From the NCBI RefSeq assembly GCF_004323735.1, contig NZ_CP036455.1, forward strand, positions 5,637,101 to 5,701,100: a stretch of 64,000 nucleotides of DNA, given 5' to 3'. Position numbers and translations under genes: made by a program. The stretch comes from Streptomonospora litoralis. Lineage in GTDB: Bacteria; Actinomycetota; Actinomycetes; Streptosporangiales; Streptosporangiaceae. How positions within the stretch are numbered: the stretch's first letter is position 1; every line of letters starts with the position of its first letter. Below are positions 14,644-40,382 of this stretch, one piece after another. A model generated the notes under the pieces. That model was not told the origin of the DNA, did not search any database, and saw nothing but the letters and a program-made list of their open reading frames with translations.

Positions 14644-14755
14644 TGCATCTCTCCTTGCCTGCGCTGTCCGTGCCTGCGAGCGTATCCGCTCCACGCGCTT
14701 CGATCCGTGCGCGTCAGGGCCACTCGGCTTGCGCGCCGAGGGTGTCCATGAGGAC

Positions 14756-14800
14756 GGATTCGGCGCCGAAAGCGTTCCCACAGACAGACTCGGCTCGGCT
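14756..14800. repeat. Dispersed repeat related to the palindrome at 47199
   Basis: GGATTCGGCGCCGAA, ten variable bases, then CAGACAGACTCGGC, one variable base and CGGCTT. The same blocks in the same order and spacing occur at 47199-47254 on the minus strand. It sits in the dnaX-ybaB spacer. Confidence 0.6.
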
Positions 14801-14809
14801 TTCCGGGGC

Positions 14810-17032
14810 TCAGTCCTCGGAGTGGTCGATCTCGCTGATGATCTTGCCGCCGAGTTCGGCCTCTATGAGCGCGAACCCCGATGACGTCCGGGGCCCGCCC
14901 CCGCCGGCAGCGGTGCTCGGTCCCGGGGTCTGCTGCCGGGCATCGGCAGCGGGGTCCGGTTGCGATTGCGTGGCGGGCTGCGGCGCGGGCGTGGACACGG
15001 GATCGGGTGGGGGCGCCTGCGCCGTGTCAGGGTCGGGAGGAGGAGCCGCCACCGCGTCCTCGTAGGGGTCGGGCGGAGGTTCCTGCTGGTGCGGCAGCGC
15101 GGGCGGCCCCGGCTCAGCCGGCGGACCTGAGTCGGCCTCCTCCGCAGGTGCGGGCGGCTCGGCCGCGGCCGAAGCCTCGGGCTCGCCGCCCGGCGGCGGC
15201 TCCGGCGACGGCTCCGGGGCACCCGGCGACGGAGGATCCGGCGGTGGGTCCCATCGCGCCGGTTCGGCGGCTGATGGCGCGGCCGACGGGCGCGGCCCTT
15301 GATTCGACATCGCCACGCCGCTCACGCGCACATCGGCGCCCAGTACTCGGCGGATCGCCTGGACGACGATCTGGTCGTTGCCGCTGCTCGTGAGTGCCTT
15401 GGCGTCATTGGGGCGGGCGAACCCGAGCTGAACGTGGCTACCGTCGACCACGACCGGACGCACGTCCATACCGCTTAGCCAGATCCAGACGGCCTTCTTC
15501 AGACCGTAGACCGCCGCCATCACCTGGTCCCAGGACGTCTGAACCGCGTTCAGATCCAGGGAGCCGTTACTTCCCCGCCGCGGCCCCGCTGCGGCGGCGC
15601 GGGCGGGCGCCTGCGCTCCGTCGCCGCCGGGAGTGCCCCAGTCGTCGGCCGCGGGCCCCGATCCCTGCCGCTGCGGGCCGGAGTCGGCGGCCGGGGCAGC
15701 CGGATTCTGCGGTGTGGGAGCGGGCCGGGGCTCGGAGCGCGGCGGAGGCGACGCCGCCGGGGCCGCCGAGGGCTCCTCGGTGGCCGGCTGCGCGGCGGGA
15801 GCCGGTCCCGCGGGAGGTGCCGGTGCCGGTGCGGCCGGAGCCGCGGACGCGGACGCCTGTCCGGACGCCATCCGCTGCTCCAACTGCTCCAGGCGGGCCA
15901 GCAGCGCGCCGGAGTCGCCCCCGCCTGGAGCGGCCCCCGGCAGCAGGATCCGCGCGCTCATCAGCTCCAGCAGCAGCCGCGGCGAGGTGGCGCCGCGCAT
16001 CTCGGTCAGGCCCTGGTTGAGGATGTCGGCCGCCCGGGTGAGCCGGGCCGGGCCGAGGCGTTCGGCCTGCTCGCGCATGCGCTCGACGGCGTCGGGCGCG
16101 ACGTTGATCAGGCCCTTCTCCAGGGCGTCGGGCACGGCGGCCAGCACGACCAGGTCGCGGGTGCGCTCCAGCAGGTCGGCGGTGAAGCGGCGGGGGTCGT
16201 GGCCGCCCTCCATCACCCGGTCGATGAGGCCGAATACCGCGGCGCCGTCGGCGTCGCCGAGGGCGTCGACCATGTCGCCGAGCAGGCTGGAGTCGGTGTA
16301 GCCGAGCAGCGCCACGGCACCGTCGCGAGTGATGCCGCTCTCGTCGGAGCCGGCCCGCAGCTGGTCCAGGATGGACAGCGAGTCGCGCGCCGACCCCGCG
16401 CCCGCGCGCACCACCAGCGGCAGCGCGGCGGGATCGAAGGGGACGCCCTCGTCGGTGAGGATCTCCTCCATGAGTTCGCGCAGCGTGCTCGGCGGGATCA
16501 GCCGGAACGGGTAGTGGTGGGTGCGCGAGCGGATGGTGCCGATGACCTTGTCCGGCTCGGTGGTGGCGAAGACGAACTTCAGGTGCGGCGGGGGCTCCTC
16601 GACAAGCTTGAGCAGCGCGTTGAAGCCCTCGCGGGTCACCATGTGCGCCTCGTCGATGACGTAGACCTTGTAACGCGAGTTCACCGGCGCGAAGAACGCG
16701 CGTTCGCGCAGGTCGCGGGCGTCGTCGACGCCGCCGTGCGAGGCGGCGTCGATCTCGATGACGTCGATGCTGCCGGGGCCGTCGGGCGCCAGCGCGACGC
16801 AGGACTCGCATTCGCCGCAGGGATCGGGGGTGGGCCCCTGGTCGCAGTTGAGGGAGCGGGCCAGGATGCGCGCGCTTGAGGTCTTGCCGCAGCCCCGCGG
16901 ACCGCTGAAGAGGTAGGCGTGGTTGATGCGGCCGTTGCGCAGCGCCTGGCGCAGCGGTTCGGTGACGTGCTCCTGCCCGCGGACCTCGCCGAACGTCGCA
17001 GGGCGGTACTTGCGATACAGCGCGATGCTCAC
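14810..17032 (-). CDS. dnaX: DNA polymerase III subunits gamma/tau
   Basis: DnaX is the clamp-loader ATPase of the replisome. The 740-residue product has Walker A GPRGCGKT (near residue 45), a zinc-binding cysteine cluster (CDQGPTPDPCGECESC), Walker B VIDEAH and the arginine-finger region, then domain III (to about 370). A long Pro/Ala/Glu-rich linker (about 385-500) separates a conserved tau-like region (WDQVMAAVYGLKKAVWIW) and another disordered, proline-rich tail. The GTG at 17032 gives VSIALYRKYRPATF, the standard N-terminus; GGAGGGAG lies 13 bases upstream. Separate gamma production by frameshifting cannot be judged. ffs lies about 165 bases upstream on the same strand. Confidence 0.96.
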   Translation of the reverse strand: MSIALYRKYRPATFGEVRGQEHVTEPLRQALRNGRINHAYLFSGPRGCGKTSSARILARSLNCDQGPTPDPCGECESCVALAPDGPGSIDVIEIDAASHGGVDDARDLRERAFFAPVNSRYKVYVIDEAHMVTREGFNALLKLVEEPPPHLKFVFATTEPDKVIGTIRSRTHHYPFRLIPPSTLRELMEEILTDEGVPFDPAALPLVVRAGAGSARDSLSILDQLRAGSDESGITRDGAVALLGYTDSSLLGDMVDALGDADGAAVFGLIDRVMEGGHDPRRFTADLLERTRDLVVLAAVPDALEKGLINVAPDAVERMREQAERLGPARLTRAADILNQGLTEMRGATSPRLLLELMSARILLPGAAPGGGDSGALLARLEQLEQRMASGQASASAAPAAPAPAPPAGPAPAAQPATEEPSAAPAASPPPRSEPRPAPTPQNPAAPAADSGPQRQGSGPAADDWGTPGGDGAQAPARAAAAGPRRGSNGSLDLNAVQTSWDQVMAAVYGLKKAVWIWLSGMDVRPVVVDGSHVQLGFARPNDAKALTSSGNDQIVVQAIRRVLGADVRVSGVAMSNQGPRPSAAPSAAEPARWDPPPDPPSPGAPEPSPEPPPGGEPEASAAAEPPAPAEEADSGPPAEPGPPALPHQQEPPPDPYEDAVAAPPPDPDTAQAPPPDPVSTPAPQPATQSQPDPAADARQQTPGPSTAAGGGGPRTSSGFALIEAELGGKIISEIDHSED

Positions 17033-31142: not shown

Positions 31143-31583
31143 TCAGCTCGCTCGCGCGACGGGGCCGCCCCCGCGGGGCGTGGGCACGGCGCTACCCGCG
31201 CTCTCCGGCGGCGCGGCGCTCTCCTGGAGCCTGCCCTCGGCCTCGGCGCGGTCGGCGTAGGTACGCAGCAGACGAGGGAGACCCGTCTGCTCCAGCGCCT
31301 TCGCAGCGGGCGATTCGGCGCTCAACACGAGCGAAAGCCCGATGCCGCGCGCCTGGGTGCGCGTGTGCACCCGCTCCAGTACCTCGCGCATCTCGGACGA
31401 GCAGGAAAGCGTCGGGGTGAAGTCGATCACGAGATGCTCGATGCGCTCGTTGAGCAGCCATAGCAGCTGCTCGCGCAGGCAGCGGGTGTGCCACGGCTCG
31501 ATGCTCTGCGGAACCGTGACGACGGCCCCTCGTCCGATGTAGTCGACCTTCGCGACGATCTGCGTCGGTTGCTTCATAATCAC
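31143..31583 (-). CDS. STAS-domain anti-anti-sigma factor-like protein
   Basis: The 146-residue protein has a single STAS domain (about 10-110). The strand VTVPQSIEPWHTRCLREQLL, the helix-preceding loop TPTLSCSSEMREVLERVHTR, and a C-terminal GLPRLLRTY segment match SpoIIAA/BldG-type antagonists. The serines in LSCSS lie where the phosphorylated serine is found, so an anti-sigma kinase could switch it. A disordered tail of about 35 residues follows. GTG 31583 or ATG 31577 could be the start; AGGTGAT favours the latter. It diverges from a second STAS gene at 31945. No kinase or sigma gene is adjacent. Confidence 0.82.
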   Translation of the reverse strand: MIMKQPTQIVAKVDYIGRGAVVTVPQSIEPWHTRCLREQLLWLLNERIEHLVIDFTPTLSCSSEMREVLERVHTRTQARGIGLSLVLSAESPAAKALEQTGLPRLLRTYADRAEAEGRLQESAAPPESAGSAVPTPRGGGPVARAS

Positions 31584-31944: not shown

Positions 31945-32301
31945 ATGCACACAGCATTCGCTTCGCCGGTCCGCTTCACAGACCGGCACACCATCGCCGC
32001 GATGCCCGTAGAGATCGACATCCACAATCGCGACGATCTGGTGTACAGCATGCTCGGGCTACTCGCCTCGGGCCACGGCGAACTCGTCGTGGACATGACC
32101 GAGACCACCTTCTGCGACTCTTCGGGCGTGCACGCACTGCTGCGTGCCCACCGCCGCGCACAGGCGCGCGGCCGGAAGATCTGCGTAGTCGCCCCGCACC
32201 CCAACGTCCGACGGGTTTTGGACATCTGCGGCGTCGGCCGGGTGATGCCGATCCACGGCGACCTCACCGAGGCCGTCCCGGATCGCCCCAAGGTCGCCTG
32301 A
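31945..32301 (+). CDS. STAS-domain anti-anti-sigma factor
   Basis: The 118-residue protein is a compact STAS domain: VEIDIHNRDDLVYSMLGLLA, the strand GELVVDMTET, then TFCDSSGVHALLRAHRRAQA. The serine pair in CDSSG is the standard phosphorylation site of SpoIIAA-type antagonists, which bind anti-sigma kinases to release sigma factors of the SigB/SigF group. The ATG at 31945 is preceded by GGAAG at long spacing. It diverges from the STAS gene at 31143. Partner proteins are not encoded in the window, so the pathway is unassigned. Confidence 0.87.
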   Translation: MHTAFASPVRFTDRHTIAAMPVEIDIHNRDDLVYSMLGLLASGHGELVVDMTETTFCDSSGVHALLRAHRRAQARGRKICVVAPHPNVRRVLDICGVGRVMPIHGDLTEAVPDRPKVA

Positions 32302-32812: not shown

Positions 32813-33409
32813 TCACCCCCGATGATCACGGGTGTCCAGTCCTTCGGCGCCGCCCTCGCAGGCCTCCACGATCCACCTCGCGCGTCGCCGCTTGCGGGTG
32901 GTGAGCGGTAGTTGCACGAGGTTCAACAGGCAGCAGAACGCCGCCCCGGCCGGACCGAACAACGGTTCGGTCTGAGAACTCAGCAGCGACCACCCGATTG
33001 CGGCGGTCGTGGCGACCAGGCCGACCGTGTTCACGGCCACGAACCACCTGCCCGGCGCCCGTTGCTGCAGAACCTTCTGCGCCTTCTCGACGGCGAGCCG
33101 GTTGACCTCGGGATCACCCCCCGGCTCGCCCCTCCTCAGCGCTCTGCGGGCCGCCCGCAGGCGTGCCGGATCGGTCTCGGGGGGCACGGCGAGCCCCCCA
33201 TCCCGGACGATCATGACGAAGACTGCGCCACCCGCCAGGCCGATCAGTACGGTGAGCGGTACCCACGGCCACAGCCCGACGGAGGACGGGACGAGGGCGG
33301 CCAGCGAGGTCAGCACCAGAACGACGCACGCGCCGAAGGCCACTCCGAAGCGGCCGGCGTGACGGTTGGCGGCCACCTGTAAGCGTTCGGCGAGCAGGTG
33401 ATCAGACAT
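32813..33409 (-). CDS. Four-helix membrane protein, paralogue 1 of 5
   Basis: The 198-residue protein is of unknown function. It has two membrane hairpins: helices near 20-42 and 47-69, then 118-140 and 148-168. Between them is a charged cytoplasmic-type linker containing RLRAARRALRRGEP and DPEVNRLAVEKAQ, shared by all five neighbours. It ends with a basic tail (TRKRRRARWIVEACE). GGAG lies eight bases before the ATG. It is the last gene of the tandem minus-strand array and is intact. No domain family is recognised. Confidence 0.82.
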   Translation of the reverse strand: MSDHLLAERLQVAANRHAGRFGVAFGACVVLVLTSLAALVPSSVGLWPWVPLTVLIGLAGGAVFVMIVRDGGLAVPPETDPARLRAARRALRRGEPGGDPEVNRLAVEKAQKVLQQRAPGRWFVAVNTVGLVATTAAIGWSLLSSQTEPLFGPAGAAFCCLLNLVQLPLTTRKRRRARWIVEACEGGAEGLDTRDHRG

Positions 33410-33480
33410 CGGTCGGTCTCCGGTGACTTGGCGACGTTGACGGCGCTGAGTCGACGGCGGCGTCGAGTCGGGAGCTTCGG

Positions 33481-34168
33481 TCAGTGGTGGTGCGGCCGGT
33501 CCCCGGCATCACCGGCGGCGGGGGTGACGGGTTCGTCCTGGTCGAGCAGCGCCGAAATGCGCTCCGATCGGCGCAGGCCGCGCTTGTGAAGGGGGTAGGC
33601 GGTCGCCGCGAGGACCGTGCAGAACACCGCGAAGACGCCGAACAGGATGGTCCGTCCCGCATGGCCGACGGCGACGGCTACGACCACCTGGCTCCACTGC
33701 AGGACGGCTCCGCACACGAAAACGGTCACGGTGAATTTCGGCGAGACCGACACCTCCGGGCTGCTCCGAGCGAGGCCGACGGCGAGACGGTTCGCCTCGG
33801 CGTCGTCCGTGGGTTCGCCGCGCTGCAGGACACGCTTGGCCGCACGCAACCGCGCCGGCTCCGTCTCCGGGCCGACTCCGGCATCGGCGCTCGTGCGCCT
33901 CACCTTGTCGGCGAAGAGCGCGCCCATGGCGGCACCCCCGACCCCCGGCAGGGCCACCAGGCCGATCCAGAAGGGGGCGGCCAGCTCAGATGCCCGGCAG
34001 GTCGACCAGGACGAGGCCGAGCAGGAACGCGGGGCCGACGAGCAGACCGGCGATTCCACCGAAGGCGCCACCCCAGCGGTAGGGGTGGGCCGCCTGGGAG
34101 ATCTGCATGCGTTCGAGCACATGTCCGCGGGCTCGGGGAGGATCGAAGTTGTTGGGGCTGCCTGCCAA
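33481..34168 (-). pseudogene. Four-helix membrane protein, paralogue 2 of 5, frameshifted
   Basis: A TTG start at 34168 has an excellent GGAGGTG ribosome site. It reads 60 codons including the first helix (AFGGIAGLLVGPAFLLGLVLV), then stops at 33986 in LPGI-stop. The neighbouring frame carries on as ELAAPFWIGLVALPG, the shared linker RLRAAKRVLQRGEP with DAEANRLAVGLA, two further helices and the tail RRSERISALLDQDEP to 33481. Removing one base in ATCTGAG (about 33995) joins the halves into a protein like the other paralogues. It is either a real single-base insertion or a sequence error. Confidence 0.8.
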
Positions 34169-34608
34169 GGGCGCACCTCCGGACTGTGGGGGCTCCTGCT
34201 GTCCCCATATCCACTCCGGCGGGCGGCATTCCGGCCGACTCCGGCCGCGTCACGGGCGCCCTGCTCACAAGGGGTACGAGTCACCCGTGGCCGCGAGGCG
34301 TCCGCAGCGGCTCCTTCAGTCCGGCTGCGCGCGGACCTGCCCCTCGAAGACGCCGACGAGGCGACCTTCTACCAGGGCGGGGACAAGGGATACATCACCT
34401 ACCCGCCCTACCGCCACTGACGGGGCGCATCGCCGGACCGCCGAACACCGCAGCAGCACTCGGGGCGCCGGGGCGACGCGCCGTCGCATCGAACCCGGTA
34501 CCGAGCGCTGCGACACCCAGACCCCCAAGCGGGTTCGAGCGCCTGCAGACCCCATATTCCCTACGGCGGTCCGCATTCCGGCTGCGCCGCTCCCCGTGCG
34601 ACGCCTAA
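34169..34608. other. Spacer between paralogues 2 and 3
   Basis: No gene is convincing. Two imperfect copies of a motif, CCCATATCCACTCCGGCGG near 34204 and CCCATATTCCCTACGGCGG near 34552, both followed by a GCATTCCGGC block, lie in the same direction about 350 bases apart. A plus-strand frame ending at 34420 has a protein-like end (EATFYQGGDKGYITYPPYRH) but no credible beginning; it may be a gene remnant. Confidence 0.4.
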
Positions 34609-35322
34609 TCACTGCACCGGAAGGGCGCCACCACCACGCGCGGCGCCGACCGATCCGATCCCTGCGGCCATCGTGTCGGCCGCGTGCAGCGCGAGCAGGC
34701 GCTCGGCACCGCGACGCTGCCGCGTCTCAGCGGGGACGGCGAAGAGCGCCATGGCGAAGAGGAGGACCGCGGCGGAACCGAAGAAGAGCATCCCGGCCGG
34801 AATTCCGTTCAGGGTGCACAAACCGGCCATCGAGCCTTCCAACAGCGCCAAGCAGAGAAAGAGCAGCCGGAGTGCTCGGGGATAGTACGGTCTCCGCACG
34901 GTGGCCCACGCCAGCGACACCGCGAGTCGGCTCACCTCGGCGTCTTCGGCCGGCACGCCCTGTTCGAGAGCACGGCGGGCCGCGTGAAGCCGCCACGGCT
35001 GTGTACCGGCATCGATGATGCCCGTGTCCAGGGCCTTGGCGGAGGCACCGACCAATAGGCCGATGACCGACCCGAACCCCAACCCCCCGACGACACACGC
35101 GAGCGGGACCGCGACCACCAAGAAGTCGACGATGTTCGCGGGAGCATCCGCGGCCGCCGTCCGATACCACCACGACCACAGCCCGACGCCCGCGATGAGG
35201 CCGAGCAGCGCCCCGAGGGGGACGGTGACGGCCAGGGGGCTCTTCGCCATGACGATCATCAGGCGCTCCCGCAGGTAGAGGCGTCTGCGAGCCGACGCGT
35301 GGAACCGGAGCGGGAGCGACAC
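34609..35322 (-). CDS. Four-helix membrane protein, paralogue 3 of 5
   Basis: The 237-residue protein has helices near 30-50, 65-95, 148-168 and 175-195, the linker RLHAARRALEQGVP with DAEVSRLAVSLA (about 110-140) and the basic tail TRQRRGAERLLALHAADT. Its plan matches paralogues 1 and 5 closely. The GTG start has AGGAGG five bases upstream, so translation should be strong. It is intact. The C-terminus adds a short glycine-rich end. Unknown function. Confidence 0.82.
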   Translation of the reverse strand: MSLPLRFHASARRRLYLRERLMIVMAKSPLAVTVPLGALLGLIAGVGLWSWWYRTAAADAPANIVDFLVVAVPLACVVGGLGFGSVIGLLVGASAKALDTGIIDAGTQPWRLHAARRALEQGVPAEDAEVSRLAVSLAWATVRRPYYPRALRLLFLCLALLEGSMAGLCTLNGIPAGMLFFGSAAVLLFAMALFAVPAETRQRRGAERLLALHAADTMAAGIGSVGAARGGGALPVQ

Positions 35323-35401
35323 GGTTGCCTCCTGGTCGTGGGGGATGGTGCGCCGCCCGCGTCCGCCGACGCCTGCTCGGCACGGGGGCGGCAGGCAGGG
35401 G

Positions 35402-36135
35402 TCAGAGGGAGCGGCACCGGTCGCCGGGCTCCGCGCTTCGGGCGCAGAAGCCGTCGACGGCGTACAGCGCTGCTACGCGCTCGCTGCGGCGGCGGGTGCG
35501 CGACCTGGCGGGCACCGCCACGAAGGCGACGGCGGTCCCCGTGATCGCGGTACCTGCGAACATGATCGCGGGGGACATCTCTCCGAGAACGAGAGCGGCG
35601 ACCAGCAGCGTCCACGCCAGGGCCGCCGTTCCGCCCGAGAATGCCTGGAGCCCGCGGCCCCGCCCGCCGGGTTTCGGCTCCCGCAGGCGCACCCGTGCCT
35701 GGGCCGCCGCCAGCCGGTTCGCTTCCGCGCCGTCGACCAGCTCGCCACGGTGCAGGGCGAGACGTGCACTGCGCCTCATCCTCGGCTCGGCACCGGACCG
35801 GGAGATCTCGTCCCTGTGGCCGGGCCGGAGGGTTGCGATCACAGCGCCCAATCCCAGCCCGGCGGCGCCTCCGAGGAGGTAGCCCAGCCCCGGGATACGC
35901 CGTCGATGATGCGGAGTTCGTACATGGTCGCCGCCAGCTCCGCCAGCACCGGCCCGAAAGCGGACAAGAGCTGCACGGCGCCGAGGACCGCCACGGCGAG
36001 CCAGCCGGTCCACCGCGAGATCAGGATGCGCTCCACCACGGTGTCGCGGAATCGCCCGGAGTTTCCGCCACCCGCGGACACGAGCGCTCGTCGGCCGGGG
36101 GAGGCTCGGCTGAGCGGGGCCGGCACCGCGATCAC
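35402..36135 (-). pseudogene. Four-helix membrane protein, paralogue 4 of 5, frameshifted
   Basis: The GTG start at 36135 overlaps the stop of paralogue 5 (GTGA), so the two are translationally coupled. The first frame gives a helix (GWLAVAVLGAVQLLSAFGPVL) and reaches MYELRIIDG near 35897. The family pattern then continues in another frame as IPGLGYLLGGAAGLGLGAVI, the linker RRSARLALHRGELV with GAEANRLAAAQA, two more helices and the tail RTRRRSERVAALYAVD, to 35402. One inserted base near GGCGTATCC restores a full-length protein of about 244 residues. Single-base loss or sequence error. Confidence 0.78.
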
Positions 36136-36824
36136 CCCTGCAGGGCCGGCGCCGACACCGACCCGCGGCGGCTGCCGGACCACTCGTCGGCGGCGTGCAG
36201 GGCGACGACCCGTTCCAGATTCCGCCGGGTCCTGTTCACTATCGCGGCTGCGCCGATGAACCAGACCGCGGCGGCTCCGAAGAAGACCATGCGGAACGCA
36301 TTCGCGTCGAGCACACCCCCGAGGAAACACACGGTCTGCATCAAGCCCCCTAAGACGAGCATCGTCCTGCCACCCCGCGTGAAGTCTCCGTGACGCGCAC
36401 GCATCCGGGCGATTCCGGCGGCGATCCGGTTCGCCTCGACGTCGCCGGTGAGCCGACCGTGCCGCAACGCCTGCCGGGCGAGGCGCATGCGCCAGGGCGC
36501 TGTGGAACGCCCGACGAGCGCGGCCCTCTCCGCACCCTTGGACGCCGCAGCGGCGGTGCCCCCGGCGACGCCTATGAGCGCGCCGAGCACGCCGCCGACA
36601 CACCCCGCGACGAGCACGACTCTGGGCTCGTCGCCGAACTCATTCGCCAGGAAACGGTCGGGAAAGCCCGCGAACAGGAAGAGCACGAGCAGCACGCCGC
36701 CCGCCAGGCCCGCGGCGACGCTCGTCGCGATGTCCCAAGGGACGGGCCTGCTCCACTTCCAGATGATGACGCGGTCGGACAGACGGCCGCGGGAACCGTG
36801 GGAGGTGCCGATGCTGGGGGGCAC
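36132..36824 (-). CDS. Four-helix membrane protein, paralogue 5 of 5
   Basis: The 230-residue protein is the first gene of the array. Helices lie near 32-60, 70-95, 150-172 and 180-198. The linker reads RMRLARQALRHGRL with DVEANRIAAGIARM, and the tail RTRRNLERVVALHAADEW. The GTG at 36824 is chosen because GAGGA lies six bases upstream; an in-frame GTG two codons earlier is too close to it. Its stop overlaps the start of paralogue 4. No known family. Confidence 0.8.
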   Translation of the reverse strand: MPPSIGTSHGSRGRLSDRVIIWKWSRPVPWDIATSVAAGLAGGVLLVLFLFAGFPDRFLANEFGDEPRVVLVAGCVGGVLGALIGVAGGTAAAASKGAERAALVGRSTAPWRMRLARQALRHGRLTGDVEANRIAAGIARMRARHGDFTRGGRTMLVLGGLMQTVCFLGGVLDANAFRMVFFGAAAVWFIGAAAIVNRTRRNLERVVALHAADEWSGSRRGSVSAPALQG

Positions 36825-36935
36825 GCGCACTCCTCGATGAGGGGGGTGTCGACAAGATCGTACCCATACCGGGCATCGATCCACGGTCCCGCCCCTTGCC
36901 CGGAACCGGCCACCCGTTCCCCGAGGAGTGTCCCG

Positions 36936-37538
36936 CTATTGCCCGGCGGTGGTGTTCGGCCGGTAGGTGCAGATCAGCACCCCTGTCGGCGTCTGCGTGA
37001 CGGAGACGAGTTCGAGGGGACGCGCCTCGCCGTCGTCGGGGAACAGCCGCTTGCCCCCGCCGAGCGTGATGGGCTCGATCATCAGCCGGTACTCGTCGAC
37101 CAGGTCCTTCTGGACGAACTGCCGCGCCAGGTCGGCGCTGCCCATCACCTGCAGGTCGCCGCCGTGTTGCCCGCGCAACTCCGCGACGGCGCCGAGCACG
37201 TCGTCCGATGGCAGGAGCCGGGAGTTGTTCCAGGTCATGTCCGCTTCGGACAGCGTGGTGGAAGCGACGTACTTGGGGATCTCGTTCATCCGGTCGGCGA
37301 AGGGGTCTCCTGCCCGTTGCGGCCACGCCTCGGCCATCACCTGCCAGGTGCGGCGTCCGAAGAGCAGGGCCTGGGTCTTCGCCATGGTCGCGTCCACGGC
37401 CGCGCCCATGGTCTCGGCATCGAAGAACCGGAACGACCAGCCCCCGTGTGCGAACCCGGCCTCGGTGTCCTCCTTGTCGTGGCCGGGCGCCTGCACGACG
37501 CCGTCGAGGCTCATGAAGTCGGCGAGCACGATACGCAT
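36936..37538 (-). CDS. Dihydrofolate reductase family protein (RibD C-terminal type)
   Basis: The 200-residue protein has the RibD_C/DHFR-like fold: MRIVLADFMSLDGVVQAPG at the start, LLFGRRTWQVMAEAWP (near 58), VMGSADLARQFVQKDLVDEY (near 130) and LGGGKRLFP near the end, a nucleotide-binding pattern. Members reduce unknown substrates with NADPH; few have known roles. AAGGAG lies eight bases before the ATG. It is not part of the paralogue array, which starts about 110 bases downstream. A second member of the superfamily lies at 48055. Confidence 0.88.
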   Translation of the reverse strand: MRIVLADFMSLDGVVQAPGHDKEDTEAGFAHGGWSFRFFDAETMGAAVDATMAKTQALLFGRRTWQVMAEAWPQRAGDPFADRMNEIPKYVASTTLSEADMTWNNSRLLPSDDVLGAVAELRGQHGGDLQVMGSADLARQFVQKDLVDEYRLMIEPITLGGGKRLFPDDGEARPLELVSVTQTPTGVLICTYRPNTTAGQ

Positions 37539-37609: not shown

Positions 37610-38807
37610 CTACGCCGCATCCAGGATCTCGCGGACCGCCGGTACGTCCCGGAAGGGCGCCAGGGCAGTACGTACGGCTCGGCCGCGCTCGACTGTGCGT
37701 TCACTGCCGAGTCGGGCCGAGATGTCGAGCATGGTGCGGGCCACGGTCGCCGCCTGTTCGGGCTCGTTCGCGTCGGCATACGCGACGGCCAGCCAGGACA
37801 GGTAGAGCGCGCGTTCGCGTGTGCGTGGTGTCGTACCGCGACAGGACCTGTTCGAGCAGCGGGACCGCCCGCAGCGGCCGGTGGAGTTCGGTGAACACGC
37901 GCGCCTCCATGACGCGCAACTCGCCCTCGTCGACCCAGTAGAGCCAGGCGGGGTCGTCCTCGTCGCCGTGCCGGGAGAGGGCCGCCTCGGCTTCGCCGAG
38001 TGCGCGCACCGCCGCGGAAGGGTCGGCGGCCTTGGTATGCGCCCAGGCGAGTCGGTCCCAGAAGATCGCGCGGGCCCGGGGAGGAGCACCGGCTCCCGCT
38101 TCGGCGAGCGCCGCCTCGGCCAGCGCCGTGCCTTCTGTTTCACGGCCGGTATTGCTCCACTGGTAGGCGAGACACCCGGCCAACTGCCCCGCGAGCGTCG
38201 TGTCGCCCGCCTCGCGTGCGACGGCCAATCCCAACCGGTACGTCCGCTCCGCAGCGTTGTGCCAACCGGCGTCGGAGGCGATCCACCCCGCTATCTGCGC
38301 GAATTCCCCGACCGAGGTCTCCATTTCCCGCTGTACAGCCTCGCTGTTGGCACCCTGCTTCAACTGGAGCACCGCAGCGTCCAACTCGGCGAACGCCGAC
38401 CCCGCCAGGTCCTTGCCGGGGACGAAATCGTCCGCGAGGCGCAACGCGTGCACGCGCGCGGAGAGCCGTGCCGCGTCGGACCTGCCCGCCCGCCTGCGCC
38501 CACCATCCGGATCGCGAAGGGAAACCGCACTTTCGTCATCGGGCAGCAATTCCGCGAGGTCGGGCGAGACACCCGTCCGGCTACGGGCGATGGCCTGCTC
38601 CATGCGGGCGCGCGGAACATGCAGCACCGCGGACAGATGCGGCAGCCAGAACTTCGGAATTCGGCGCCCGGATTCCCATCGGTAGACCTCTTGGCGCGTG
38701 ACCGTCGCACGCCCGGACTCGGCGCACAAAGCCTCGGCCAACCTCGCCTGTGACCAGCCCAGCTCGCGTCTGCGGCTCTTCAGCAGTTCGGGCCGCCCTT
38801 CAGCCAT
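37610..38807 (-). pseudogene. XRE-TPR transcriptional regulator, frameshifted
   Basis: The N-terminus is an XRE helix-turn-helix (about 8-65; GWSQARLAEALCAESG then RQEVYRWESGRRIP), followed by a long helical, TPR-like repeat region (about 110-370; AERTYRLGLAVAREAGDTT is one unit). This is the layout of peptide- or ligand-sensing regulators. Near 37820, in GC-repeat sequence, the frame slips: the first frame ends in scrambled sequence at 37701, while the repeat pattern continues in another frame as ERALYLSWLAVAYADANEPE to 37610. Loss or gain of a base in GCGCGCGTTCGCG explains it. Most of the protein, including the DNA-binding part, is still encoded. A peptide gene is divergent. Confidence 0.8.
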
Positions 38808-39157: not shown

Positions 39158-39403
39158 CTACCGGTCCTCGTCGGCTGCGGCCGCCTCCGTCTCGCCGCCT
39201 TGGGAGTCGGCGCGGCGGCGCAGCAGCTTCCCGACAAGCAGGTTCCCGACGAGCAGAACGACCAGGCCCGCGTTGGCGGCGATGATCCACAGACCGGCCT
39301 CGTGGCCCATCGACATCAGCATGAAGCCCGCCGCGAACGTTCCGAGCATCAACAACAGGAACGGGACGATTTCGCGGGGCACGGTGACAGGTCCGAAGCG
39401 CAT
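39158..39403 (-). CDS. Small two-helix membrane protein
   Basis: The 81-residue protein has two membrane helices (about 11-33, IVPFLLLMLGTFAAGFMLMS; and 39-59, LWIIAANAGLVVLLVGNLLV) and a charged C-terminal tail with KLLRRRADSQ and an acidic end. The start ATG gives a short MRFGPVTVPRE leader. It resembles the small uncharacterised membrane proteins common in actinomycetes. It is monocistronic, bounded by terminators. Confidence 0.72.
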   Translation of the reverse strand: MRFGPVTVPREIVPFLLLMLGTFAAGFMLMSMGHEAGLWIIAANAGLVVLLVGNLLVGKLLRRRADSQGGETEAAAADEDR

Positions 39404-39762
39404 GCGGCCTCCTCACGAGCCGTAGGGGGATGGCGCCGAGTCGACAAGTGTCCCAGTCGACACGAGGAGGTGCCGCACCCGCCCCCGAGGCCCGGCGCCG
39501 GTGCCGGTGCCGTCCGTATCGACGGGGCGTCGGGACAGGGTCGACGGGCGGCTATGTCGACATGGGCATATGGAGATCCCCGTCGTCCGCCATCCGACGG
39601 CCCAGCCGGTACCGGTCCGAGGGGCGTGTCGATCGCCGGGTCCGGAAGGGTCCGAACCGGAAACGCGAAAAGCCGACCGCTCCGGCGCGTGTACTCACCG
39701 GTGCGATCGGCTTCGCGATTCGGTCACGCCCTCCGCCTACCGGAGCAGGCGGCGGGGCTCGG
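39404..39762. other. Gene-free spacer with GTCGAC-rich sequence
   Basis: GTCGAC recurs several times between 39439 and 39560. The tRNA terminator at 39660-39713 is the only functional element recognised. No gene is supported. Confidence 0.45.
39660..39713 (-). terminator. Terminator of tRNA-Ser(CGA)
   Basis: On the minus strand AAGCCGATCGC pairs with GCGGTCGGCTT (one mismatch), followed by TTCGCGTTT. It begins 50 bases after the tRNA 3' end. Confidence 0.65.
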
Positions 39763-39847
39763 CGGTGGAGGTGGGATTCGAACCCACGGAAGGTTGCCCT
39801 TCACTCGCTTTCGAGGCGAGCGCCCTCGGCCACTAGGCGACTCCACC
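39763..39847 (-). tRNA. tRNA-Ser(CGA)
   Basis: An 85-nt class II tRNA: acceptor GGTGGAG/CTCCACC, anticodon loop CTCGAAA with anticodon CGA, long variable arm (GAAGGGCAACCTTC) and T-arm GTTCGAATC. Discriminator G; no encoded CCA. Its -10 element TAGAGT (39855-39860) overlaps the tadA stop codon. Confidence 0.97.
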
Positions 39848-39857
39848 GCGGACAACT

Positions 39858-40382
39858 CTACCGGATGCGGCGTAGTGAGAAGAACTCGGAGAGGACCGCC
39901 GCGCACTCGTCGGCGACATCGGGCGATACCAGGTCGGGCGGGAGGACCTCGGGGCGGTGGTTGAGGCGGCGGTCGCGGACGACGTCCCAGAGGGAGCCGA
40001 CTGCACCCGCTTTGGGGTCGCGGGCGCCGTAGACCAAGCGGTCGACGCGGGCCTGTACGAGCGCACCGGCGCACATCGTGCACGGCTCCAGGGTGACCGC
40101 CAGCGTGCAGCCGCCCAGCCGCCACTCGCCGCGGTGGCGGGCGGCCGCGCGCAGAGCCAGGACCTCGGCGTGGGCGGTGGGATCGCCCGCGGCCTCCCGC
40201 TCGTTGCGACCCGTGCCGATCACCTCGCCCCCGCCGTCGAGCACGACGGCGCCCACGGGGACGTCGCCGCTGTCCGCGGTGCGGCGGCTCTCCTCCAGTG
40301 CGCGGCGTAGAGCCGCGTCGACGTGTGCGCGGTCCATAGGGACCGGAACGATGCCGCCCGATTCCCCACCGGTTCCGGTCAC
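39858..40382 (-). CDS. tadA: tRNA adenosine(34) deaminase TadA
   Basis: TadA converts A34 of tRNA-Arg(ACG) to inosine. The protein has the zinc and proton-shuttle motif HAEVLAL and the paired-cysteine motif PCTMCAGAL, with GRNEREAAGDPTAHAE in the usual place. From the GTG at 40382 it has 174 residues; that start overlaps the previous stop in a GTGA arrangement, which suggests translational coupling. An ATG 15 codons later (40337) is closer to the typical N-terminus but has no ribosome site. tRNA-Ser(CGA) follows at once on the same strand. Confidence 0.93.
   Translation of the reverse strand: MTGTGGESGGIVPVPMDRAHVDAALRRALEESRRTADSGDVPVGAVVLDGGGEVIGTGRNEREAAGDPTAHAEVLALRAAARHRGEWRLGGCTLAVTLEPCTMCAGALVQARVDRLVYGARDPKAGAVGSLWDVVRDRRLNHRPEVLPPDLVSPDVADECAAVLSEFFSLRRIR

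Follow-up and report, generated by a model that had tools for sequence, protein, structure and literature searches.

The array and its five genes

The minus strand of a 64,000-nucleotide stretch of the Streptomonospora litoralis chromosome (the whole stretch is hereafter called the window) carries, at positions 32813-36824, five consecutive paralogous genes, which we number W1 to W5 from the 5' end; gene 5 of the first-pass annotation of this DNA is our W1. Judged by sequence comparison, the array appears to be a local expansion of a small membrane protein family that is absent from the libraries searched. W1 (36132..36824) starts with a GTG at 36824, an alternative GTG at 36830 being possible, and encodes an intact four-helix membrane protein of 230 residues, which matches a five-row profile of the array (W1 itself among its rows) at E 3.6e-74. 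The frames of W3 (34609..35322, 237 residues) and W5 (32813..33409, 198 residues) are open as well, and W3 has the strong ribosome site noticed earlier, an AGGAGG five bases upstream of its GTG start. The other two genes are broken, each being split across two frames: W2 (35402..36135) into an N-terminal piece (36135..35839) and a remainder in another frame that ends at 35402, and W4 (33481..34168) into an N-terminal piece (34168..33986) that stops and a remainder, also in another frame, that ends at 33481. The first-pass annotation had hinted that some frames needed restoration, and these are the two concerned. It had also reported a GTGA overlap of its genes 4 and 5, which is the overlap of the W2 GTG with the W1 stop codon at 36132-36135. 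The spacing is uneven across the array, with 440 bp between W3 and W4; a 44-nt direct repeat (34192-34235 and 34539-34582, 82% identical) lies in and near this gap.

The proposal that the five genes are paralogues with one plan holds: when W5 is used to search its own genome, the other four array genes rank next (E 3e-14 to 2e-4), and a combined motif, A-x2-[AVL]-[LVI]-x2-G-x(4,6)-E-x-[NS]-R-[LI]-A, occurs once in each array gene, which makes five occurrences in a six-frame translation of the 64 kb. The five-row profile finds no sixth copy in this genome, its next match being at E 0.06, and local alignments among W1-W5 give pairwise identities of 29-37%. The linker forms as originally written (R-x3-A-x2-A/V-L-x2-G, then D-x-E-x-N/S-R-L/I-A) are found exactly in four of the five genes, W2 lacking the first R and the D. 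The basic tail motif is present in W1-W4 together with AL-x3-D, one residue longer than had been described (R-x2-R-x2-E-R), and W5 has neither. An arginine in the N-terminal part and a proline just ahead of the first membrane helix are also conserved (83% and 81% of the members with a letter there).

The breaks in W2 and W4 may be assembly errors, in which case all five genes would be intact; we regard this as possible, with the odds against it, and as compatible with any of the readings discussed below. According to PMC8448680, the S. litoralis M2 genome was assembled with canu, polished and, where it is repetitive, corrected by hand from Illumina contigs, and three breaks fall inside 6 kb, the third being in a helix-turn-helix regulator gene (37610-38807, minus strand) that adjoins the array and also shifts frame. 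The surroundings argue the other way: on the tRNA side of the array (39.8-53.9 kb) all nine matching genes of the related genome G004 align in one piece over their full or nearly full length, and on the other side five of seven do so, the two others aligning in part though the window genes are open. Broken family copies exist in other genomes too.

Turnover of the locus within Streptomonospora

The array lies in an interval that is recognisable in all six Streptomonospora genomes compared (the window's, G004, G001, G003, G002 and G005) and runs from a tRNA-Ser gene to a pair of STAS genes. One border is formed by a STAS-domain protein (31143..31577, minus strand; Pfam STAS, 3.9e-6), whose counterparts are 66-74% identical in G004, G001 and G003 and 68-70% identical in G002 and G005. 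A second STAS-like gene (31945..32301, plus strand) converges on the array; it shares 32% identity (E 1e-8) with the first of the STAS genes in G001. On the opposite side the array is flanked by a RibD-like gene (36936-37538) found in the Pfam scan. The other border is formed by tRNA-Ser (cga) (39761..39847, minus strand) and a conserved gene (39858..40337, minus strand; 82-88% identity in three relatives) that we take, from its sequence, to encode a tRNA adenosine deaminase-like (tadA-like) protein. Near tRNA-Ser, an open reading frame of 81 residues (39161-39403, minus strand) is hydrophobic by eye and has no Pfam match at E 0.001.

The number of family copies in this interval is 5 in the window and 3, 1, 1, 0 and 0 in the other genomes, taken in the order just listed. 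Profile searches found no family copy anywhere in G002, and G005 has two solitary copies away from the tRNA-Ser/STAS locus. In G001, the intact gene is followed by what looks like a decayed second copy (L025, about 14700-15150), in which hairpin letters can be seen by eye and which the profile does not find clearly; broken copies occur at two further loci (L102 and L217). In a genome of another genus, G108, a family pair adjoins the same tadA-like gene. The 16 flanking genes common to G004 and the window are 69-98% identical (11 of them above 85%), whereas the array genes reach at most 46%, a value seen over 149 residues between the C-terminal piece of W2 and gene B of G004. The locus is therefore old, with a content that turns over quickly, and family copies have been gained, lost and broken within one genus. 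As a side observation, DnaB of G001 (1064 residues, L025 1488-4682) has an intein-like insert of about 415 residues that is not in the window DnaB (653 residues), and DnaB of G005 (L265 16352-19480) has 1042 residues.

Extent of the family

With the five-row profile, matches were obtained in 5 of 60 genomes, each of them a Streptomonospora and one of them the window's; a 13-row profile matched 39 of the 341 genomes of the taxonomic family, and a 27-row profile matched 91 of the 345 genomes of the order, many of these matches being weak and partial. Since the 13-row, 27-row and phylum-wide searches scored 7-8 candidates per genome, the copy numbers they give are lower bounds. The 102 strongest matches of the 27-row search, listed down to E 6.7e-8, come from 38 genomes: 29 of Nocardiopsis (g73), five of Streptomonospora including the window's, and one each of g7, g85, g82 and g17. 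They form 81 clusters, of which 66 are single-copy, 11 have two copies, three have three, and the window has five; at least four of the single-copy clusters (L114, L115, L209 and L221) have a tandem neighbour in a later, more sensitive search. In a search of 396 genomes of the phylum, 13 have a match at E 1e-4, one of these being the window's, and among the other twelve most of the profile is covered in two, G381 (E 7e-9) and G390 (E 7e-6), the remaining ten matches covering from about half or less to two thirds of it. Nearly all full-length relatives belong to Streptomonospora, to Nocardiopsis or to one of two nearby genera. G021, G264, G381 and G651 may hold true distant kin. In G152 (L209, 3552-5688) there are shorter, more distant relatives, three found by profile and a fourth by eye, in which the hairpin is present and the N-terminal part is apparently different. 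Five matches in one further genus lie within frames of about 975 codons; the alignment of one of them, L082, resembles what we presume to be a polytopic antiporter or a Nuo subunit, and this match was taken as chance.

The first-pass annotation had recognised no family and had spoken of an old, diversified expansion with a fixed linker, and our searches agree. The window proteins match no Pfam or NCBIfam model at its cut-off, and Pfam, NCBIfam, PADLOC, PHROGs and the PDB searched by sequence contain no full-length match to the family; the best PDB sequence match is otopetrin (E 0.0029), over profile positions 14-109 only. No paper on this four-helix family was found among open PMC full texts. 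The family is apparently unnamed, and it seems to be absent from the four family libraries searched even though there are strong matches in 29 Nocardiopsis-group genomes alone.

Predicted topology and the cytoplasmic hairpin

The predicted plan is a membrane hairpin, a cytoplasmic two-helix hairpin, a second membrane hairpin and a basic tail, which gives four membrane helices and places the N-terminus, linker and tail in the cytoplasm; hydropathy, charge and two structure models all point to this arrangement. Each of the four membrane helices is hydrophobic in 95-97 of the 99 members aligned. The net charge per 100 residues over these members is +9 for the N-terminus, +15 and +4 for helices 1 and 2 of the cytoplasmic hairpin and +11 for the tail, against -8 and -12 for the two outer loops, which average only about 9 and 5 residues. 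GxxxG is found in membrane helices 1 and 2 of 47 and 53 of the 99 members, exceeding all 200 shuffles, and in helices 3 and 4 of 18 and 6, with no enrichment over shuffles. The region boundaries used for these counts, and for the rates given below, were placed by hand from the W3 model.

That model has a mean pLDDT (predicted local distance difference test) of 80.5 and a pTM (predicted template modelling score) of 0.61, with helices at 5-27, 29-56, 62-99, 109-121, 128-143, 147-172 and 175-229; the three blocks across residues 111-140 have mean pLDDT values of 92-93. The model of a Nocardiopsis member that is 18% identical to W3 shows the same helix order (mean pLDDT 74.7, pTM 0.62). Both are single chains and were built on the same nine input sequences, so that their agreement on a two-helix hairpin, which speaks against the possibility that the shared linker motif is unrelated helices, is to be read with this common input in mind. 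Foldseek returned nothing at E 0.001 or better for either model against the PDB, or for W3 against viral models.

In W3 the hairpin (34894..35001) comprises the predicted helices 109-121 and 128-143; in the other genes it was placed by the motif, with limits transferred from the W3 model, at 36393..36500 in W1 (motif at residue 112), 35681..35788 in W2, 33754..33861 in W4 and 33065..33172 in W5, all on the minus strand. Its conserved letters among the 99 members are A115 (93), G122 (88) and D127 (77); E129 is kept in only 47. Short helices around a conserved glycine, together with a conserved acidic residue (D127), are also a trait of the SHOCT domain, and the models show such helices here. 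Profile alignments with hhalign gave, for 27 members, scores of 15.3 against DUF1707 and 12.5 against SHOCT, which none of 100 column permutations reached in either case. When the alignment held 99 members, these scores stood at 13.3 and 12.0; permuting the target reached them in 1 of 150 cases (DUF1707) and 0 of 150 (SHOCT), and permuting the linker in 0 of 150 and 1 of 150. SHOCT has no Pfam match at E 1 among the window proteins and is not among the 14 Pfam families that a scan of 52 members gave at E 0.01; DUF1707 was reported in neither scan. The hairpin is described here as SHOCT-like in shape, and not as a SHOCT. Three DUF1707 genes are clustered at 4029650-4030867 of the window's chromosome, and similar trios occur in G002, G003, G004 and G005.

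Rates of evolution and possible relaxed selection

Over 18 locus pairs, the family genes (n=30) have a median dN/dS, the ratio of amino-acid-changing to silent substitution rates, of 0.64 and a median identity of 57%, against 0.26 and 88% for neighbour genes (n=114) of the same pairs. The partners were best BLAST matches, and three of the 30 family comparisons, at 30, 31 and 35% identity, are probably not between orthologues; the family median is 0.61 without them (a hand recount), and some neighbour rows at 29-38% have the same fault. The Mann-Whitney p of 5e-12 for this difference overstates its certainty because the pairs share branches. The ratios were obtained by Nei-Gojobori counting in GC-rich genomes, where codon bias lowers dS, and therefore only the contrast with neighbours is used. 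The ABC-2 permease that adjoins one class of family loci (locus d, below), also a membrane protein, has a dN/dS of only 0.14-0.26. Values above 1 were seen in 4 of the 114 neighbour rows, and two family rows stand at 1.01.

Pooled over 13 orthologue sets, dN/dS is 0.36, 0.23 and 0.64 for helix 1, turn and helix 2 of the cytoplasmic hairpin, 0.84-0.95 for the membrane helices, 1.04 and 0.53 for outer loops 1 and 2, and 0.68, 0.64, 0.53 and 0.64 for the N-terminus, the stretch before the hairpin, the stretch after it and the tail. The amino-acid-changing differences per site are 0.15, 0.13 and 0.15 in the three parts of the hairpin and 0.20-0.33 elsewhere. The hairpin is thus the least-changing part of the protein, and the membrane helices look near neutral. 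The diversifying pressure suggested in the first-pass annotation is borne out insofar as the family diverges fast compared with its neighbours; in the strict sense it is not, since no region has a dN/dS clearly above 1 (pooled by region, maximum 1.04).

The same rates raise the possibility that selection on this birth-and-death family is relaxed and the family largely dispensable: duplication would make copies that mostly drift and decay, with only weak anchoring or membrane-stress roles. Besides the contrast of 0.64 with 0.26 and the high values of the membrane parts, the broken W2, W4, L102 and L217, the relic in L025, the lack of any copy found in G002 and the low coding scores per codon of W1, W3 and W5 (0.09-0.15) are in its favour, the neighbouring STAS genes also scoring low (0.14-0.16). 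However, the hairpin keeps A115 and G122 in nearly all members at a dN/dS of 0.23-0.64, and orthologous loci persist across many Nocardiopsis species. On balance, we find this explanation somewhat doubtful.

Fast divergence, tandem arrays and presence/absence variation beside a tRNA gene would also be expected of an arms-race family, one that blocks the entry of phage DNA or protects against membrane-active toxins and has been diversified by conflict. We think this very improbable. PADLOC gave nothing at E 0.01 for the eight members scanned (best E 0.031); no relative was found on plasmids for W3 or one Nocardiopsis member, in phages for W3, or in viral contigs for one subfamily; and no toxin or defence gene was seen in the neighbour lists, which were read by eye, with no whole-list scan. 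The absence of a region clearly above 1 and the shortness of the outer loops likewise speak against it.

Paired genes in Nocardiopsis and the question of a fixed complex

The family loci of Nocardiopsis fall into several types. At locus type b (L102, L103, L104, L110) a STAS gene is followed by two members and a TIM barrel gene; at type c (L100, L101, L105, L106) a TetR gene is accompanied by two to four members and ABC (ATP-binding cassette) exporters; and at type d (L107-L109, L114, L115, L217) two members lie beside a DrrA/ABC-2 exporter on the opposite strand, with a two-component system on the other side in five of the six loci. Pfam confirmed TetR and ABC at L100, the DrrA-like, ABC-2, kinase and regulator genes at L107, and STAS and the TIM barrel at L102. 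Other neighbours carry labels assumed from their sequence: the TIM barrel gene of locus b is presumably xylose-isomerase-like, and solitary copies have various neighbours, presumably with FecCD-like transporters and a clpX-like gene among them. The first-pass annotation had asked whether arrays always have several copies and the same neighbours; most clusters are single-copy, and the neighbours differ between loci.

In a quick IQ-TREE tree of 103 rows, with support from the Shimodaira-Hasegawa-like approximate likelihood ratio test (SH-aLRT), the tandem positions of loci b and c form separate clades (99-100) and the downstream genes of locus d form a clade (98). Six upstream genes of locus d are in one clade (99), with that of L107 outside it. 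A wider clade of ten rows (99) unites these seven with L226 and with the upstream genes that two of the four c loci have; a further family member follows in nine of the ten, L226 having no partner. Between L107 and L115 the identity is 31% for the upstream gene and 87% for the downstream one, which suggests that the partner has been exchanged. The Streptomonospora array members group at weak support (82-92), together with the solitary lineage L028/L119; W2 falls in one clade (99) with gene B of G004 and both copies of G108, which are sister to each other (99), so that the duplication in G108 is local.

Start and stop codons overlap by 4 bp in 14 of 27 adjacent family pairs (W1/W2 being counted by eye, and three of the 14 having TTG starts), the 27 being 30 rows less three that are halves of one broken gene. 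Among neighbours outside the family at a distance of up to 200 bp, the same overlap occurs in 42 of 139. Fisher's test, computed for 14 of 26 family pairs against 42 of 139, gave p 0.025; W3/W4, 440 bp apart, were excluded, and a second L209 pair with another gene between was kept. The excess in family pairs is modest, and the pairs are not independent because they are drawn from three locus types.

It is from these observations that the idea of the paralogues as subunits of a fixed hetero-oligomeric membrane complex, one of two suggestions made in the first-pass annotation, draws its evidence: at loci b, c and d each tandem position keeps to a clade of its own in different species (98-100), the ten-row clade unites the upstream genes of c with those of d, nine of its ten rows being followed by another member, and both W1/W2 and pair A/B of G004 overlap as the family pairs often do. 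Yet the subunit set is not kept. Two of the five window genes are broken, locus copies range from 0 to 5 within the genus, and most clusters are single-copy (66 of 81 listed, at least four since corrected). L226 is partnerless, either partner of locus b can be found alone (L197, L207), the c upstream gene is present at only two of four loci, the L107 upstream gene lies outside the clade of its locus, as would be expected if partners were exchangeable, and the overlaps are non-independent and the G108 copies sisters. The loss and decay of copies argue against an obligate five-subunit complex, and a fixed complex of this kind is unlikely. Distinct coupled partners are, however, kept at some Nocardiopsis loci, and hetero-pairs are therefore possible there.

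Interpretation

The reading that we consider best, with a probability of roughly 0.4, is that the family consists of membrane-anchored adaptors that present a small binding hairpin and that evolve by fast birth and death. Of the parts of the protein the hairpin changes least, the membrane helices being nearly free to change, and this pattern singles out the hairpin as the probable working part. The membrane hairpins would serve mainly as an oligomerising anchor, a role that the enrichment of GxxxG in helices 1 and 2 may reflect, and the SHOCT-like cytoplasmic hairpin would bind a putative partner, cytosolic or membrane-associated, candidates being STAS regulators, ABC exporters or something else; STAS genes lie beside the family at two loci, and ABC exporters do so at a further two. 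The paralogues would, on this view, be adaptors that differ slightly in specificity, produced at a low level and often dispensable, and the members of an array could mix as hetero-oligomers, all five not being required for function. The hairpin also offers a small, testable unit.

Several points weigh against the adaptor reading. The partner of the hairpin is putative only, and the family neighbours vary between loci. At a dN/dS of 0.64, helix 2 of the hairpin equals the tail (0.64) and lies within the range of the remaining cytoplasmic stretches (0.53-0.68); outer loop 2 has a value of 0.53. The turn of the hairpin, modelled as inside, is negative (-14 per 100 residues), and the counts over 99 members are not independent since the members are related. 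The HH-suite probability is just 4-7% for SHOCT and DUF1707, against 92% for the control comparison of DUF1707 with SHOCT, and the DUF1707 score dropped from 15.3 to 13.3 as the alignment grew. For SHOCT itself, the oligomerisation test reported in PMC3581485 did not, in its authors' account, support an oligomerising role. Finally, a family of little function could also show membrane parts close to neutrality and frequent decay. The main competitors of the adaptor reading are such a drifting, almost functionless family and, at some loci, hetero-pairs.

A bolder version of it, in which a SHOCT-like hairpin between freely evolving membrane hairpins defines a new class of adaptor, and the paralogues form changing hetero-oligomers, so that the duplication, exchange and loss of subunits would let a lineage rewire its platforms in the membrane, is quite improbable on present evidence.

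Comparison with known systems

Among named candidates we considered PspM (Rv2743c, NF047839), which like our family is an actinobacterial membrane protein. Identity with it was rejected: a full-length match above 80 bits was not found, and the window genome has no match. The NF047839 model has weak matches in two of 52 members (best E 4e-4); in the reverse direction, the family profile scores 17.8 bits on the PspM of L253, in the first membrane hairpin only, and does not match the PspM-like protein of L254. As described in the relevant passages of PMC11237479, PspM has two membrane helices only and thus lacks the second hairpin. The LiaI-LiaF-TM sensory region, compared by its description in the same passages, likewise has four membrane helices and belongs to the context of bacterial envelope stress. 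In an E-value scan of 52 members without curated cut-offs, five had weak matches to actinobacterial Holin-X (PF07332, best E 8.6e-5) and seven to DUF6404 (PF19942, best E 4.2e-5); these putatively reflect generic glycine-rich membrane hairpins.

A further resemblance concerns the cytoplasmic hairpin. Like SHOCT (PF09851) and DUF1707 (PF08044), both common in actinobacterial proteins as this family is, it is a unit of about 30-50 residues with a two-helix core and a conserved turn glycine, and four positions are in register with them: the glycine, a hydrophobic residue at +2, a basic one at +10 and a hydrophobic one at +11. One difference lies in its position. According to PMC3581485, SHOCT lies within 50 residues of the C-terminus in 89% of SHOCT proteins, whereas the family hairpin stands mid-protein between two membrane hairpins, in W1, W3 and W5 and in both models, and not at an end. 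Should the hairpin be a true relative of SHOCT, the domain would here occupy the interior of a polytopic membrane protein and not an end.

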